From positions 1 to 61,871 of IMG/VR virus record IMGVR_UViG_3300042465_001631: a DNA stretch of 61,871 bases. One strand, given 5' to 3'. The stretch's first letter is position 1. Each line of letters begins with the position of its first letter. The DNA comes from a virus. Positions 43,376 to 57,473 of the stretch are shown one piece after another. The notes under the pieces are model-generated. The model ran no database searches, was not told the DNA's origin, and saw only the letters and a program-made list of their open reading frames with translations. The position numbers were made by a program, and so were the translations under genes.

Positions 43376-45262
43376 TTATAATTTTACTATAGTTAGTATT
43401 CTATTATTTAATATACATCTACCAACATCGGTTCTCCAATTTATACTAATAGGTTGTGTACCATCAACAGTTGTAACACAAGTTAAAGCTACATCTTCTG
43501 TATACGTGTAGTATCTTCTTAATCTACTGGAGTTTGGAACCATTGTATTCCCATTATATATACTAAACATATTAGTACTACCTAATTGTTGAGTATCATC
43601 ATAAGCATTTCCATTAAATATACTTGTTGCAAATATAGTAACATTTCCAAAATTAGTACCCATATCTCCTGTTATTACTGCTAAAGCTGTATTTGCAACA
43701 TTACCTTGATTTGTAAAGCAAAGGAAGTTTTCCAATATACCCATATTGATAACACTTATTGCAGTTGGTTTAGATTGTATTCCTGAGCTAAATGCTAAAG
43801 CACCACTTGTAGAAAACAATCTACCATTAAAAATACAATTTGCACCTAAAGCAGCAGCTGCTCCATAAGCAATAAAGTTTCCACTAACAACATTATCTGC
43901 ACCAATTCCTACAGCTCCAATAGCCATAAAAAATACATTAGCAGCATTAGCACTATTACTCAATTGAATAGTGGTTGCAATTGCTGTGTTTATAGCTCCT
44001 GTTACTCTAAATATAAATAAAGCATTTGGATCACCTCCACCATCAAGCGTTAGTGTTCCAGCAACTGACATAGCTCCTGAAACTGTATAAACTCCAGCTG
44101 TAATAGTTTCTCCTGAACCAAAAGTTAATCCATGAGTTCCTGTAGCTGGTGTATTTAATAGTGCTAGATACATATTCTGTAAATCTAGTGTAGCTATTGT
44201 ACAAACATTTCCAGGTATTACATCATAGTTTCCATTAAAATCTACTTTATAAGTTCCTGCAGGGGGAGTTATAGTCATACCTGTTACTACTACATCTGTT
44301 AAAGAAGTTGTTGATACTTCTTCTGATGCATTTATAGAGTTATAATATCCACCACTAACTGTAACTACATTCCCATTTGCATCAACTCCTATTGCTTGTC
44401 CTGTTGATGTTGGAGAAGAACTTGTTAGTCTTTCAAGTCTTAGACCAGAATCATTAGCAGCTTCACCATATATATGAAGTCTTTTTGTTGGCGCTATTGT
44501 TCCTATACCTATCTTACCTACATTGTCTATATAAAGTCTTGTAGTTGATGACGTCCTTAAATGTAAAAAATTCTGATTACCCCCATAAAACATAGTTGAA
44601 CCTGATAATTCAGCTACATATACATCGCCAATAGTTATTGAATTATTTGCAGGAACAAGATTAATACCTAATAATCCTGTTGCATCAGCAGCTCTTATGC
44701 TTCCTATTACATGCAAAGGTACTTGTGGACTTGTTGTGAGTATTCCTAATCTATTATTTGTGTCATTCCAAAAGAAATTAGGATTATCTTGCGCAATTGT
44801 TGTTCCATTTGAGAATAATACAGATCCAGATGTTAATGGACCTATAACTGCTCCTGGACCTTGTGGACCTATTGGACCTTGTTCTCCAGCTGGACCTACA
44901 GCACCTTGTAATGCAAGTAATGCCCAATGTGTTGGATCTAAGTAAGGCTCTATAGTTCCATCAGTAGCTAATATACAGAAATAAGAACCATTATTATTAC
45001 CAACAGCATCATCCTCTATATAAGAAGTTCCTGATTCCCATTCTCCTCTCCATTCTAATCCTGCTGGACCAACTGCACCTGGTGCTCCTGTTAATCCTAT
45101 CTCTCCCTGTGGACCAATAGGTCCCTGTTCTCCAGGACCTACAAATTCTGCAATATCCTCTATGGTAAAAGGCTCTGTTGTTTTGTTCAACACAGCAGAC
45201 TTTCTTTCTACTAAGTCAACCGATGTCGCTATTCCTATAAATCTTGTACCATTTGGTATCAT
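43376..45262 (-). CDS. Collagen-like tail fibre with an ice-binding-like (DUF3494) domain
   Basis: A 628-residue fibre. Residues 1-40 (RFIGIATSVDL... FTIEDI) are an anchor shared with the 157-residue protein at 48869. Gly-x-y triplets follow (GPGEQGPIGPQGEIGLTGAP; a second block GPAGEQGPIGPQGPG), as in collagen-like phage fibres. Residues about 310-510 show the ice-binding-like fold signature: ITAGVYTVSGAMSVAGTLTL, DPNALFIFRVTG, NVFFMAIGA and NGRLFSTSGALAF. This domain is widespread in cold-adapted microbes; here it is probably an adhesin binding cell-surface polymer or ice. The last about 120 residues are a further beta domain. Confidence 0.82.
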   Translation of the reverse strand: MIPNGTRFIGIATSVDLVERKSAVLNKTTEPFTIEDIAEFVGPGEQGPIGPQGEIGLTGAPGAVGPAGLEWRGEWESGTSYIEDDAVGNNNGSYFCILATDGTIEPYLDPTHWALLALQGAVGPAGEQGPIGPQGPGAVIGPLTSGSVLFSNGTTIAQDNPNFFWNDTNNRLGILTTSPQVPLHVIGSIRAADATGLLGINLVPANNSITIGDVYVAELSGSTMFYGGNQNFLHLRTSSTTRLYIDNVGKIGIGTIAPTKRLHIYGEAANDSGLRLERLTSSSPTSTGQAIGVDANGNVVTVSGGYYNSINASEEVSTTSLTDVVVTGMTITPPAGTYKVDFNGNYDVIPGNVCTIATLDLQNMYLALLNTPATGTHGLTFGSGETITAGVYTVSGAMSVAGTLTLDGGGDPNALFIFRVTGAINTAIATTIQLSNSANAANVFFMAIGAVGIGADNVVSGNFIAYGAAAALGANCIFNGRLFSTSGALAFSSGIQSKPTAISVINMGILENFLCFTNQGNVANTALAVITGDMGTNFGNVTIFATSIFNGNAYDDTQQLGSTNMFSIYNGNTMVPNSSRLRRYYTYTEDVALTCVTTVDGTQPISINWRTDVGRCILNNRILTIVKL

Positions 45263-45306: not shown

Positions 45307-45873
45307 ATGGAATTTAAACCAAAATTACGTAAAAACTACGACAGATACGAACCAAAGTACGACTACTTGAAATATTACAAGGTAGTTCGGTACTGGGTAA
45401 AGCGAAAGTATGGTGTCGGAACATCTGACCTTGAGATGCTGTGCTTCTTGTACACTCAAAAACTATTCAAGCGTGCAGACTTTAAAGAATACGAGTGCCT
45501 ATTCGCATGGGATGTGAATCGATTCCAAAGACTTATGGATGAGGGGTGGATCTCTCGTTGGCGTGAACGCAAAGGAACAGAGGGTGCTTTATATGAACTA
45601 TCACAGAAGGGTAAGCTGTTGATTACTACCGTGTACAGAAAGCTAAATGGAGAGGAGCCTATATCTGAGGCTCAACAGAACAATCCACTATTCAATACAA
45701 ACGTGTCATATACTGACAATATGTACAAGAGAATTATAAAGACAATGAATATAAACTATGCCGAAAAAAGAAGGCTGAAGAAGATAGACGAAATCGCCTT
45801 TCAAAAACAGCCTTGTACAATTGAAAAAAGGAAAGCTATAGGACTACCACCACATCCCTTTCTTGAATTATAG
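45307..45873 (+). CDS. Winged-helix (MarR-like) protein
   Basis: A 188-residue basic protein, the only plus-strand gene among the late genes. The middle (residues 30-100) follows a winged-helix order: DLEMLCFLYTQKLF, then a recognition-type helix FAWDVNRFQRLMDEGWISR and a wing ending in ALYELSQKGKLLI. The C-terminus is basic. I chose the ATG at 45307, which follows the divergent promoter by 22 bases; an upstream frame opening to 45271 lies within the promoter. It could regulate the late genes or be a structural DNA-binding protein. Its 3' end overlaps groES by 38 bases, convergently. Confidence 0.72.
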   Translation: MEFKPKLRKNYDRYEPKYDYLKYYKVVRYWVKRKYGVGTSDLEMLCFLYTQKLFKRADFKEYECLFAWDVNRFQRLMDEGWISRWRERKGTEGALYELSQKGKLLITTVYRKLNGEEPISEAQQNNPLFNTNVSYTDNMYKRIIKTMNINYAEKRRLKKIDEIAFQKQPCTIEKRKAIGLPPHPFLEL

Positions 45874-46102
45874 TATAGGGTATATTCTCTATTAACATAG
45901 TATATCCAGCTCCTTTATCGTAGTAGATATAATTTCCCTCGTTAACGCAGTCTACATTCGTGCCTGGCTTTACTACTAGCCCCTTCTTGTATCTAAACTT
46001 CTCAGCATCACTACCCGTAAGTAGTAACCCTGATTCTGTTTTTATCTGTTCATCAATCGTTGTGATTAAAATGTATTTATTTATTGGAATTGCTGTCATC
46101 AT
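45836..46102 (-). CDS. groES: Co-chaperonin GroES
   Basis: An 88-residue GroES-like protein: IPINKYILITTIDEQIK strand, the mobile-loop region ESGLLLTGSDAEKFRYKKGL, then KGLVVKPGTNVDCVNEGNYI and a C-terminal ERDVVVVL. It is short, as in phage co-chaperonins. It follows groEL with its ATG overlapping the groEL stop region and would cap the phage chaperonin. It converges on the winged-helix gene. Confidence 0.85.
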   Translation of the reverse strand: MMTAIPINKYILITTIDEQIKTESGLLLTGSDAEKFRYKKGLVVKPGTNVDCVNEGNYIYYDKGAGYTMLIENIPYTIIQERDVVVVL

Positions 46103-48681
46103 TACGCTCGTGTCATTGTTATAATTGCATTTGTACTTAATATCGTAGTGGCTACACTCACCGCATTCTTCAGTGCGTTCTTCGTAACCTTCAGTGGATC
46201 AATTACACCCATCTTGAACATATCACCATATACCTCATTCTTAACATCATACCCTTGATCCTTACCAAATGGAACCTCCATCACCTCATAACCATCCAAC
46301 CCAGCATTGGTCATGATCTGTAGCAATGGTGCTTGTATAGCCCTTGCTATAATATGCATCGCTGCGTACTGGTTAGCACTAATGTCATCAATCGTGTCAT
46401 CTGCGTTAGCGATAATCGTGTAAGACTCACTGAATAAGGCTAAACCTCCTCCTGGCAAGATACCTTCCTCTAATGCAGAACGTACAGCACATACTGCGTC
46501 ATCAACTCTGTCTTTACGTTCTTTCTGCTCAAGGTCTGAGTTACCTCCTACGTAAATTACACCAATACCTCCTGTCAAGCTAGCAATACGCTGTTTGATA
46601 AAGTCCTTGTCTGACTTTCTATTTGATAGGTTATAGCTATCCCAAAGCTGAGAAACTCTATCGTTGATCTCGTCGCTTGCAACCTCTGACCTTACAATCA
46701 CAGTGTTGTCTCTTCCTACAATGATCTTGTCTGCTCTACCAAGGTCGTCAACGCTAATAAGGCTCAAGTCATCTCCAGTGCTCTCTGAGAAATACTTAGC
46801 TCCTACAGCCAGTGCAATGTCACCCATCAACTCGTTACGTTTATAACCAAACTGAGGAGGTATAATGTTGCATAACCTCAATCCCTTCTGTACTACGTTG
46901 GCAGCCAATGTGTTAATAACATTCTGACTACACGTACCGATGATCAATAGCTTCTTCTGTTGCTGTATAACTGGCATAAGTACCTTCTCAATTGACAAGA
47001 TATTATTTATCTCTTGATCCGTAACAAGTACCAGTACATCATCCATAATGCACTCGTCTTTCTTATGGTTGTTGATGAACATGTTCGATGTATATCCTCT
47101 ATCAATCTTAATACCATTGGTAACCTGCGTATACGTCTCTGATGTCTGAGAGTCCTCGATAGTGACAATACCATCCTTACCAACCTTCTCGTATGTGCTC
47201 GCTATAATACCGCCAAGCTCCGTGTCATTGTTGGCTGAGATTGATGCCACGTTCTTCAGCGTCTTTCCGCTAACCTTCTTGGACCTCTTCTCCAGACTAG
47301 TTACCAACCTATCAGTTACGTCGTTCATGTGTCTAATAACCTCTGTGATGTTGTGCTTGTCGTTCAAAATCTCTTGACCTTGCTTAACAATAGCCTCTGT
47401 AAGCACAATCGCTGTTGTGGTATTGTGAGTAGGAATATAATTATCTGTTATGTATAAGTGGTTTTCATTACTTACCTTTATACACATCATTTCTGTTCTA
47501 ATTCCAGTATTTACTACGTTTACTATTTTAGCTCCGTACTTATATCCAGATAATTGAGCTATTCTATGAATACTTTTATTTGAGTATGAATTAACATCAT
47601 TCTCTCTTGAATGTAATCTCCTGTTAAAAGAATGACCAAGACTAACGATTAATTCTTGAAAGTCGTCAGCTAATTTATCAGAAACCGTACTAAATTCAAA
47701 TAACCCTCTTTTATTAATATATCCGTCAGTAGCTAATAGTCCTTCTAATAATCTTTTTCTATCCTCTATTGGGGAATATAAATAAGTTTCTGGTATTAAT
47801 TTCGTATCGCTTTTTGTTCCAAGTAAACCTATTGAATTAACTAAATCAAACATAGTAAGTCCAGATTCAGTAACTCCTTTAAATTTTACTCTAAAATAAT
47901 TCTTATCATCACACCATCTAACTGATGTAGTTATTCCGTCTGGAATAATTATACTGCTAATTATATGTTCTTTATTTAATCCAAGAGATAACTCAATAGC
48001 TCCTGTTCCGCTTAAACTACCATCACCAAGAAGTACACCTACTAAAAATGGATCTAACGGCATAGGATTTACTTGAGTAAACTCAACTGGAGACGTTTCT
48101 ATAAAATATTTGTATGTATTTGAATTATCTTTATTTAAAGATGAAAAATCTTTCATTATATCTAAAGTAGTAATAGTTTTAGATACTCCGTAATTAGTTG
48201 TAACGGTCCATAAATGATTTTCAGAACACTCAACTAACCTTCCATCTCCAAATGAAACTTCGTATATGTCTAAATTTCCTTTAGGGAATACCCCTAAAAC
48301 AGTTTGACTAGTTTCGTGAGTTCCGCAAATAGTATCTCCAACACTTAAATCACTTATCTTAGTCCATCCAAATGGGGTTAAGACATTGGCATCTAATGGT
48401 TGTGGTCCATCTCCTGCACTAGTCGCTGTGCGATCTGCCGCTTCCTTCATCATCTTAACTGCTAGGTTCTCTACTGGATCGATGAGGTAAATAGACTTGG
48501 CTACTGTTACCCCATCTTTCGTGACTGTAATTCCATGCGTGTGCTCTGGTGATTCAATCAAGACTGTCTTACCTCGTGGTCCGAGTGTGCTCTTAACTGC
48601 CTTGGCAATAGTGGTGATGCCATTAATTAACTTATCCCTTCCTTCTGTATCGAAGACTAAATCCTTTGGACTGTAACTCAT
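46102..48681 (-). CDS. groEL: Chaperonin GroEL interrupted by an intein
   Basis: An 859-residue precursor. Exteins form a GroEL of about 531 residues: N-terminal STLGPRGKTVLIE and KDGVTVAKSIYL, then the conserved ATP-site segment TATSAGDG interrupted after DG, continuing TTTAIVLTEAIVKQG, and later GGIGVIYVGGNSDLEQKERK and EEGILPGGGLALF. The intein occupies 47422-48405. A start at the ATG at 48681 is preferred over an upstream TTG (48711) because GroEL begins at about this point and the TTG lies in the promoter. The chaperonin probably folds phage structural proteins together with the adjacent GroES. Confidence 0.93.
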   Translation of the reverse strand: MSYSPKDLVFDTEGRDKLINGITTIAKAVKSTLGPRGKTVLIESPEHTHGITVTKDGVTVAKSIYLIDPVENLAVKMMKEAADRTATSAGDGPQPLDANVLTPFGWTKISDLSVGDTICGTHETSQTVLGVFPKGNLDIYEVSFGDGRLVECSENHLWTVTTNYGVSKTITTLDIMKDFSSLNKDNSNTYKYFIETSPVEFTQVNPMPLDPFLVGVLLGDGSLSGTGAIELSLGLNKEHIISSIIIPDGITTSVRWCDDKNYFRVKFKGVTESGLTMFDLVNSIGLLGTKSDTKLIPETYLYSPIEDRKRLLEGLLATDGYINKRGLFEFSTVSDKLADDFQELIVSLGHSFNRRLHSRENDVNSYSNKSIHRIAQLSGYKYGAKIVNVVNTGIRTEMMCIKVSNENHLYITDNYIPTHNTTTAIVLTEAIVKQGQEILNDKHNITEVIRHMNDVTDRLVTSLEKRSKKVSGKTLKNVASISANNDTELGGIIASTYEKVGKDGIVTIEDSQTSETYTQVTNGIKIDRGYTSNMFINNHKKDECIMDDVLVLVTDQEINNILSIEKVLMPVIQQQKKLLIIGTCSQNVINTLAANVVQKGLRLCNIIPPQFGYKRNELMGDIALAVGAKYFSESTGDDLSLISVDDLGRADKIIVGRDNTVIVRSEVASDEINDRVSQLWDSYNLSNRKSDKDFIKQRIASLTGGIGVIYVGGNSDLEQKERKDRVDDAVCAVRSALEEGILPGGGLALFSESYTIIANADDTIDDISANQYAAMHIIARAIQAPLLQIMTNAGLDGYEVMEVPFGKDQGYDVKNEVYGDMFKMGVIDPLKVTKNALKNAVSVATTILSTNAIITMTRA
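47422..48405 (-). mobile_element. Class 3-like intein with LAGLIDADG endonuclease in GroEL
   Basis: A 328-residue insertion between GDG and TTT of the GroEL ATP-binding loop. It begins PQPLDANVLTPFGW, so residue 1 is Pro and not Cys or Ser. Block B has ENHLW, block F has MMCIKV with Cys in the place of the usual Asp, and block G is THN followed by Thr+1. W, C and T are the diagnostic residues of class 3 inteins. Two LAGLIDADG-type motifs are present (LVGVLLGDGSL and LLEGLLATDGYI), so the homing endonuclease is probably intact. Numbering within the precursor is about residues 93-420. Confidence 0.92.
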
Positions 48682-48708
48682 TTTATTATATTTAATTGTT
48701 TTATGGGA

Positions 48709-48716
48709 CAAATATA
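48709..48716 (-). promoter_or_regulatory. Bacteroidota -7 promoter element for groEL-groES
   Basis: Minus-strand TATATTTG lies 28 bases before the chosen ATG at 48681. It overlaps the alternative TTG codon, which argues against that codon as the start. Confidence 0.65.
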
Positions 48717-48863: not shown

Positions 48864-49371
48864 AACTATTAGTTATATACTCTTATTTCAATTAACGTAT
48901 TATTTAGTATTCCATCTTTTTCTATACTATTATTATTAGTTATATCTACATCTACTGTAGTTAATACTAAATAATTAGTCTCTCCTTCATCAAGTATATT
49001 TGCATAAGTACAGTACGTATTAAGTCCTGATATTACTCCAATACTTACATTACCATTAGGATTAGGGCATACTGTTTTCCCTATTGTAAAAAAATTAATC
49101 CCATTAATTAAATATACTCCAATTCTATCGTATGTAAACCAAATATCCCCAATAGTGTTTTCTAATACAGTTGCCACTGGAGCATTTTCTCCGCTTTGTG
49201 TTAACAAAGCTGTATAAACCTTATAGCCCTTAATATCATCAAGAGTAAATGCCTCAGTCTGATCATTAACCAACTTGCTCCTTTTTTCAGTTAGATCTAC
49301 GCTAGGAGCAATGCCTATGAATCTAAACCCATTAGTAGCCACTACTTCTTCTTCATGATTATGTTATGATG
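48841..49371. repeat. 23-bp direct repeats bracketing a fibre gene
   Basis: Bases 48841-48863 and 49349-49371 are identical. The repeats enclose the 48869-49342 fibre gene almost exactly, so recombination between them would delete or exchange that gene cleanly. Confidence 0.85.
48869..49342 (-). CDS. Short fibre-like protein (RFIGIA anchor plus QSG module)
   Basis: A 157-residue protein. The N-terminal 40 residues (GFRFIGIAPSVDLTEKRSKL ... EAFTLDDI) match the anchor of the collagen-like fibre. The C-terminal module (ALLTQSGENAPVATVLEN ... NTLIEIRVYN) matches the short fibre at 37449-37904. It is thus a natural recombinant of modules found elsewhere in this genome. It lies far from the main fibre genes, flanked by 23-bp repeats. 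Confidence 0.68.
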   Translation of the reverse strand: MATNGFRFIGIAPSVDLTEKRSKLVNDQTEAFTLDDIKGYKVYTALLTQSGENAPVATVLENTIGDIWFTYDRIGVYLINGINFFTIGKTVCPNPNGNVSIGVISGLNTYCTYANILDEGETNYLVLTTVDVDITNNNSIEKDGILNNTLIEIRVYN

Positions 49372-57403: not shown

Positions 57404-57473
57404 AGCTACGTGGTATAGTGGTATTATATTGAGTTTTTCCTCATTGAGGCAGGTTCGATTCCTGTCGTAGTGC
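57404..57473 (+). tRNA. tRNA-like gene with an atypical anticodon arm
   Basis: Seventy bases that fold as a tRNA. The acceptor stem (57405-57410 with 57466-57471) has one G:T pair. The D-arm has AGTGGT in the loop, and the T-arm is GCAGG-TTCGATT-CCTGT with one G:T closing pair. The anticodon stem (TTGAG with CTCAT) leaves a loop of six bases (TTTTTC) instead of seven, so the anticodon is unclear: TTT (Lys) or TTC (Glu) could be read. It may be a degenerate tRNA or one with an unusual loop. CCA is not encoded. Confidence 0.6.

Follow-up and report, generated by a model that had tools for sequence, protein, structure and literature searches.

The tail fibre gene at 43376-45262(-) of a 61,871-nucleotide viral DNA (IMG/VR record IMGVR_UViG_3300042465_001631, positions 1 to 61,871; the whole stretch is referred to here as the window) is an open reading frame (ORF) with a 628-residue product. 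Sequence profiles and a predicted structure leave us with very little doubt that the last ~327 residues form a nested module: a TNF/C1q-like jelly roll, interrupted between its two halves (residues 307-349 and ~558-628) by a DUF3494 beta-solenoid (residues 352-557) that is circularly permuted. We found no phage fibre tip with a permuted DUF3494 domain inside a TNF/C1q-like one, either among annotated phages or in the open literature searched. That literature, with subscription journals and preprints outside its scope, held nothing connecting DUF3494 with phage fibres or with circular permutation. What was known before is that the corresponding Pfam family, PF11999, occurs in viral contigs, where the accessible text of one study reads it as host cryoprotection (PMC11515562).

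Architecture of the fibre

From its N-terminus, the fibre is made up as follows.

45140..45262, minus strand: N-terminal virion anchor, residues 1-41, from identity to the elemovirus tail fibre; common to the fibre of viral contig L009 and resembling the start of ORF 48869-49342
45059..45139, minus strand: first collagen-like Gly-x-y stretch, residues 42-68, from sequence; Pfam Collagen E 0.005, below cut-off; PHROG 5073
44906..45058, minus strand: W-x-G-W...PxxxxHWALLA domain between the collagen stretches, residues 69-119, inside the PHROG 5073 match; also in the fibre of viral contig L002
44852..44905, minus strand: second collagen-like Gly-x-y stretch, residues 120-137, from sequence
44345..44851, minus strand: stalk with LGIxTxxP repeats, residues 138-306; residues 229-288 match the Bdellovibrio fibre Bd2133 (8ond), E 7.5e-7
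44216..44344, minus strand: predicted first half of the TNF/C1q-like jelly roll, residues 307-349, from AlphaFold2 strands; aligns to TNF-like lectins together with the second half
43766..44209, minus strand: DUF3494 helix and coils B2-B6, residues 352-499, with putative ice-face residues Ala423, Ala450, Ala469 and Ala488; PF11999, core hidden Markov model (HMM) 3e-65, model compared with 5uyt
43592..43765, minus strand: DUF3494 coil B1, residues 500-557, from phmmer alignment to residues 5-63 of ice-binding protein chains and the B1 HMM
43379..43591, minus strand: predicted second half of the TNF/C1q-like jelly roll and C-terminus, residues ~558-628, from profiles, AlphaFold2 model and fold match

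PF11999 (Ice_binding) matched residues 318-490 at 79.3 bits, against a curated cut-off of 28.7 (E 4.2e-22), and the closest solved relative by sequence was 5uyt (E 9e-41), the tandem DUF3494 protein IBPv of Flavobacteriaceae bacterium 3519-10. An earlier note on this DNA had placed a DUF3494 signature at about residues 310-510. The family and its motifs were correctly recognised, but the range was not: the insert occupies 352-557, and residues 307-349 belong to the first half of the jelly roll. Coil B1 (about 500-557) had been missed because it comes after the rest of the domain. Whereas the usual order of elements is B1, helix, B2-B6, the fibre has the helix, B2-B6 and then B1, and its domain is thus a permuted variant of DUF3494/PF11999 rather than an ordinary member.

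As Pfam alone did not detect B1, we used purpose-built HMMs and alignments to PDB sequences for the permutation. Profiles for half 1, core, B1 and half 2 were built from permuted phage modules and run on 3,377 ORFs. The window phage, other viral contigs and Bacteroidota genomes showed the order half1-core-B1-half2. In ordinary tandem ice-binding proteins the order was B1-core-B1-core, B1 lay upstream of the core in ordinary bacterial members, and no ORF matched the B1 profile without also matching core or half2. With phmmer, the residues following the core aligned near the N-terminus of 5uyt, 7bwx, 7bwy and 8x1l, with the core itself aligning further along. The top single match to 5uyt spanned the junction between the end of its first domain and the beginning of its second. 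The permutation may therefore stem from a tandem array in which the cut fell one coil out of register. IBPv shares with the fibre the solenoid and helix fold and the rows of small ice-face residues. It differs in being a free protein with B1 first in each domain; the fibre has B1 last, as if excised across two tandem domains, and its DUF3494 domain sits inside the jelly roll of a phage fibre tip.

AlphaFold2 gave a predicted local distance difference test score (pLDDT) of 34 with a two-row alignment and of 94.9 with 56 aligned sequences, and the latter model, a monomer, was used. It contains a triangular beta-solenoid with an alpha-helix alongside, which matched ice-binding protein structures at Z 16-21 (root-mean-square deviation 1.2-2.1). 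Model residues 51-247 aligned to 5uyt with Z 21.2 and 1.3 Å over 154 residues (VIA-align), and SfIBP (6bg8) gave Z 17.5. Single-domain ice-binding proteins scored Z 16-19 over about 145 residues and left their N-terminal coil unaligned, as the permutation predicts. The earlier proposal of a DUF3494 fold in a collagen-containing phage fibre, to be checked by structure prediction, is therefore borne out by the family score and by the predicted beta-solenoid, and no unrelated fold was obtained.

In the model the outer parts jointly form a full TNF/C1q-like domain, like those of the TNF-like lectins PLTL (9ib7) and BC2L-C (N-domain, 6tid), of C1q and of BclA, from all of which it differs in being interrupted by an insert of ~206 residues. 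Taken together, the halves matched PLTL with Z 15.8 and 1.8 Å (113/133 residues; model residues 5..327), and alignments to TNF-like lectins ran over about model residues 2..327, across the insert. Other matches of the outer parts were BC2L-C (Z 15.5), the exosporium proteins BxpB/ExsFA (about 14), BclA (12.6) and C1q (12.4). Among the matches listed, no solved structure matched both the solenoid and the jelly roll; such a structure may still exist. Known relatives with the TNF/C1q-like fold are trimeric, and the collagen-like stalk suggests that the tip, modelled as a monomer, would be trimeric.

By sequence similarity, the protein is a phage tail fibre of a relative of Flavobacterium phages. 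PHROG 5073 ('tail fiber protein') matched residues 44-142 (E 1e-25), and residues 2-121 were 51% identical to the annotated tail fibre protein of the Flavobacterium phage elemoviruses. Anchor and stalk are common to annotated tail fibres, and the neighbourhood agrees, with GroES/GroEL genes near the fibre gene as in elemovirus elemoF and in L009. The earlier description as a collagen-type tail fibre holds in part. PHROG 5073 supports a tail fibre and the Gly-x-y stretches are present, but they are short (42-68 and 120-137) and Pfam Collagen reached 17 bits, below its cut-off of 27.2 bits.

Exchange of the module among phages and Bacteroidota

The window's terminase and portal match the uncultivated podovirus MW202828 at 74% and 70%, and its terminase also matches elemoviruses (45%). 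A profile search found PF11999 in neither MW202828 nor elemoF, so the window phage appears to have gained a different fibre tip on a conserved anchor.

A search for DUF3494 in other phage fibres, as had been proposed, showed 15 other uncultivated viral contigs (8 to 131 kb, duplicates removed) in which tail- or fibre-like ORFs end in the complete module. The module had no match in 50,697 annotated phage records (several queries, one up to E = 1), and the joined jelly-roll halves matched nothing in annotated phages. Synechococcus phage S-SKS1, named in the accessible text of PMC11515562 regarding homologs, lacked PF11999 at E 1e-3. The window fibre matched the viral contigs in the tip, or the tip and adjoining stalk, and beyond this shared only its anchor with L009 and its collagen-W-domain stretch with L002, which suggests that the tip moves between stalks. 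The module also stands on stalks without collagen repeats, in L009 almost directly after the N-terminal anchor. The combination with Gly-x-y repeats, which had been called unusual, is not the main point; the permutation and the nesting are. Two consecutive module genes are found in each of L010 and L018, and in L015 the module is joined to an otherwise different long protein. A natural short module gene in L012 (5114-5569) lacks coils B2-B6, keeps part of B1 and the second jelly-roll half, and adjoins an intact module gene.

Bacterial carriers are Flavobacterium restrictum, F. franklandianum, Aequorivita antarctica, a Saprospiraceae metagenome-assembled genome (MAG) and three Bacteroidota MAGs, with a related ORF in Polaribacter glomeratus. 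Their module forms the C-terminal end of ORFs with signal-peptide-like starts. F. restrictum is a glacier isolate that does not survive above 20 C (PMC12799291). We considered a prophage origin of the bacterial copies, and by eye the neighbouring ORFs in F. restrictum look like ordinary chromosomal genes. Arrays of several consecutive secreted bacterial genes, each with a nested permuted DUF3494 module at its end, were seen in L037-L041. In a tree the window falls within a group made up wholly of phage modules and well supported; the tree did not resolve the deeper branching of phage and bacterial copies. Between the window and L008, nonsynonymous divergence (dN) was 0.14 and synonymous divergence (dS) about 1.1, which is near saturation, indicating purifying selection.

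The ice-binding face and the role of the tip

The ice-binding site of IBPv consists of one Ala/Gly row on loops and a second row of mostly Thr/Ser; small-to-bulky mutations reduce activity, and Leu174 partly accounts for the weaker first domain (PMC5673226). Mapped from IBPv by sequence, the first row of the fibre is Ala423, Ala450 (replacing Leu174), Ala469, Ala488 and Asn521. The second, taken as the first plus two residues, is Asn425, Gly452, Ala471, Ala490 and Ala523, and by this mapping the fibre has two rows of small ice-face residues. Across 18 phage modules, 86% of row 1 was A/G and 98% of row 2 was small, with 27% A/G and 55% small residues in the whole insert. Alanine in this DUF3494 column is characteristic of polar-marine and glacier-ice sequences, with more Ser/Thr elsewhere (PMC12337378). 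The DUF3494 domains of other phage proteins are mostly A-S-S-T, with Thr in row 2, whereas the fibre has A-A-A-A plus one N. Of the two targets suggested earlier for the domain, ice or a surface polymer, ice is the one that the retained IBPv row favours. Together with the alanine pattern it favours ice binding for the fibre family, though ancestry could yield the same pattern, and we think that the fibre's DUF3494 domain probably binds ice.

We propose, with the chances for and against about equal, that the main role of the tip is to tether the virion to ice. The N-terminal anchor would sit on the virion, and a short collagen-like and beta stalk would carry the C-terminal tip of TNF/C1q-like fold. 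As the solenoid is inserted in a loop of the tip, three solenoids would stand out from each trimeric fibre, each keeping the flat small-residue face that binds ice in IBPv. Many weak contacts would add up to multivalent attachment of the virion to ice crystals. This would hold it at the ice surface alongside cold-living Bacteroidota, some secreting proteins that end in the same module, and the host cell would then be recognised by another fibre or by the jelly roll itself. Our evidence supports the protein's identity as a fibre, its fold, the nesting and the permutation, the retention of ice-face residues, exchange between phages and the existence of bacterial relatives; the trimer, ice binding and ecological role are what we infer.

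Related arrangements are known. Split beta-sandwich domains of RTX adhesins give rise to domains that bind ligands (PMC12077191), and the budding ligand domains of M. primoryensis MpIBP and A. hydrophila AhLap, including an ice-binding one in MpIBP, resemble the fibre. These are very large RTX proteins; the likeness is one of architecture only, and the fibre is no member. The ice-binding domain of MpIBP differs from DUF3494. The mosaic adhesive trimers of Bdellovibrio (Bd2133, Bd2439, Bd2734) are like the fibre in their stalk (8ond, E 7.5e-7) and in having exchangeable tips, including TNF-like ones that form the adhesive ends. They are proteins of a predatory bacterium, for which the accessible text describes no ice-binding insert (PMC10769870).

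Several points weigh against ice tethering. With sugar lectins as its TNF-like relatives, the tip could have a glycan as its target. The alanine row runs throughout related Bacteroidota domains and may reflect ancestry over selection in the phage, and one of the five first-row positions is Asn. One relative phage comes from a Florida spring, though it lacks PF11999. No permuted member is so far known to bind ice.

The main rival is a host-surface adhesin, in which the solenoid, the TNF-like lectin fold or both bind a flavobacterial polysaccharide or protein, ice binding is lost or incidental, and the tip was borrowed from a host adhesin for the same partner. Host recognition is the normal job of fibre tips, the closest jelly-roll matches are sugar-binding TNF-like lectins, and the bacterial relatives are repeated secreted genes. 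Of the TNF-like tips on Bdellovibrio fibres, the accessible text describes one with bound N-acetylglucosamine (PMC10769870), and PF11999 is found in many environments free of ice too (PMC12337378). Against this, the alanine row and flat face that the tip retains are tied to ice binding and unlike the A-S-S-T of most other phage DUF3494 domains, which leaves an adhesin a possible but rather doubtful explanation. Protection of the particle from freezing, with the domain restraining ice recrystallisation near the virion for freeze-thaw survival and tethering secondary, seems unlikely. DUF3494 proteins are able to inhibit ice recrystallisation, as the literature records, and fibre identity would place the domain on the virion surface, but the few fibre copies per virion would give a low bulk concentration and the placement in a split domain suggests ligand binding. 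Least credible is an auxiliary gene guarding the host cell against freezing, the interpretation given to ice-binding-like genes of the Arctic virome in the accessible text of PMC11515562, since the domain is here a virion fibre tip with a phage anchor and the ORF has no evident signal peptide at its start. The PF11999 'auxiliary' genes of those Arctic viral operational taxonomic units belong to the same Pfam family and lie on viral contigs, but are read as host cryoprotection, and neither a fibre tip nor a permutation is described in that text.

Returning to tethering, an ice-binding tip would mean that part of the virion is adapted to a non-living solid, and would offer a simple, testable account of how phage and host meet in sea ice, lake ice and glaciers. 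The case also shows that a PF11999 gene in a virome does not have to be one that protects the host. The natural permutation within a split jelly roll, moreover, offers a ready template for presenting several ice-binding domains per fibre. A broader and more tentative idea, towards which we are slightly sceptical, is that ice serves as a phage staging surface. An exchangeable permuted cassette, also present in secreted proteins of cold Bacteroidota, would gather virion and host on the same ice, and DUF3494 domains would recur on virions, on fibre tips, the tail sheath and other tail proteins, in some cases for ice and in others for different surfaces.

Other viral DUF3494 proteins and neighbouring genes

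The contractile tail sheath protein encoded by ORF 2377-5220 of L105 (genome G029; PHROG 279, E 5e-28) also has a DUF3494 domain inserted in it, permuted at the same point as that of the fibre (profile positions 26-204, then 2-73). The same phage has three further DUF3494 copies across two long ORFs, and L084-L088 have a sheath-like protein similar to that of L105. A 1210-residue viral protein (L103, 1459-5088) carries an ordinary-order DUF3494 domain between Gly-Ser linkers (GGGSGGGGSSS ... GGGGSGGGGG). Fn3-like viral proteins (NVYRGTLPGNEG) in L063, L064, L072, L079 and L093 have an ordinary DUF3494 domain with a face of A-S-S-T type, and perhaps bind a target other than ice.

In the window, ORF 48869-49342(-) starts with the same anchor-like sequence as the fibre (NGFRFIGIAPSVDL) and is perhaps another fibre or tip carrier. 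ARAGORN found a tRNA-like gene at 57404-57473(+), its anticodon not determined. The phage GroEL gene at 46102-48711(-) is interrupted at the GDG|TTT nucleotide-binding motif by an intein-like insert (LAGLIDADG_3, E 5e-4), which starts with PQPLDANVLTPFGW and lacks the usual Cys/Ser at position 1. GroES, at 45836-46102, follows GroEL.
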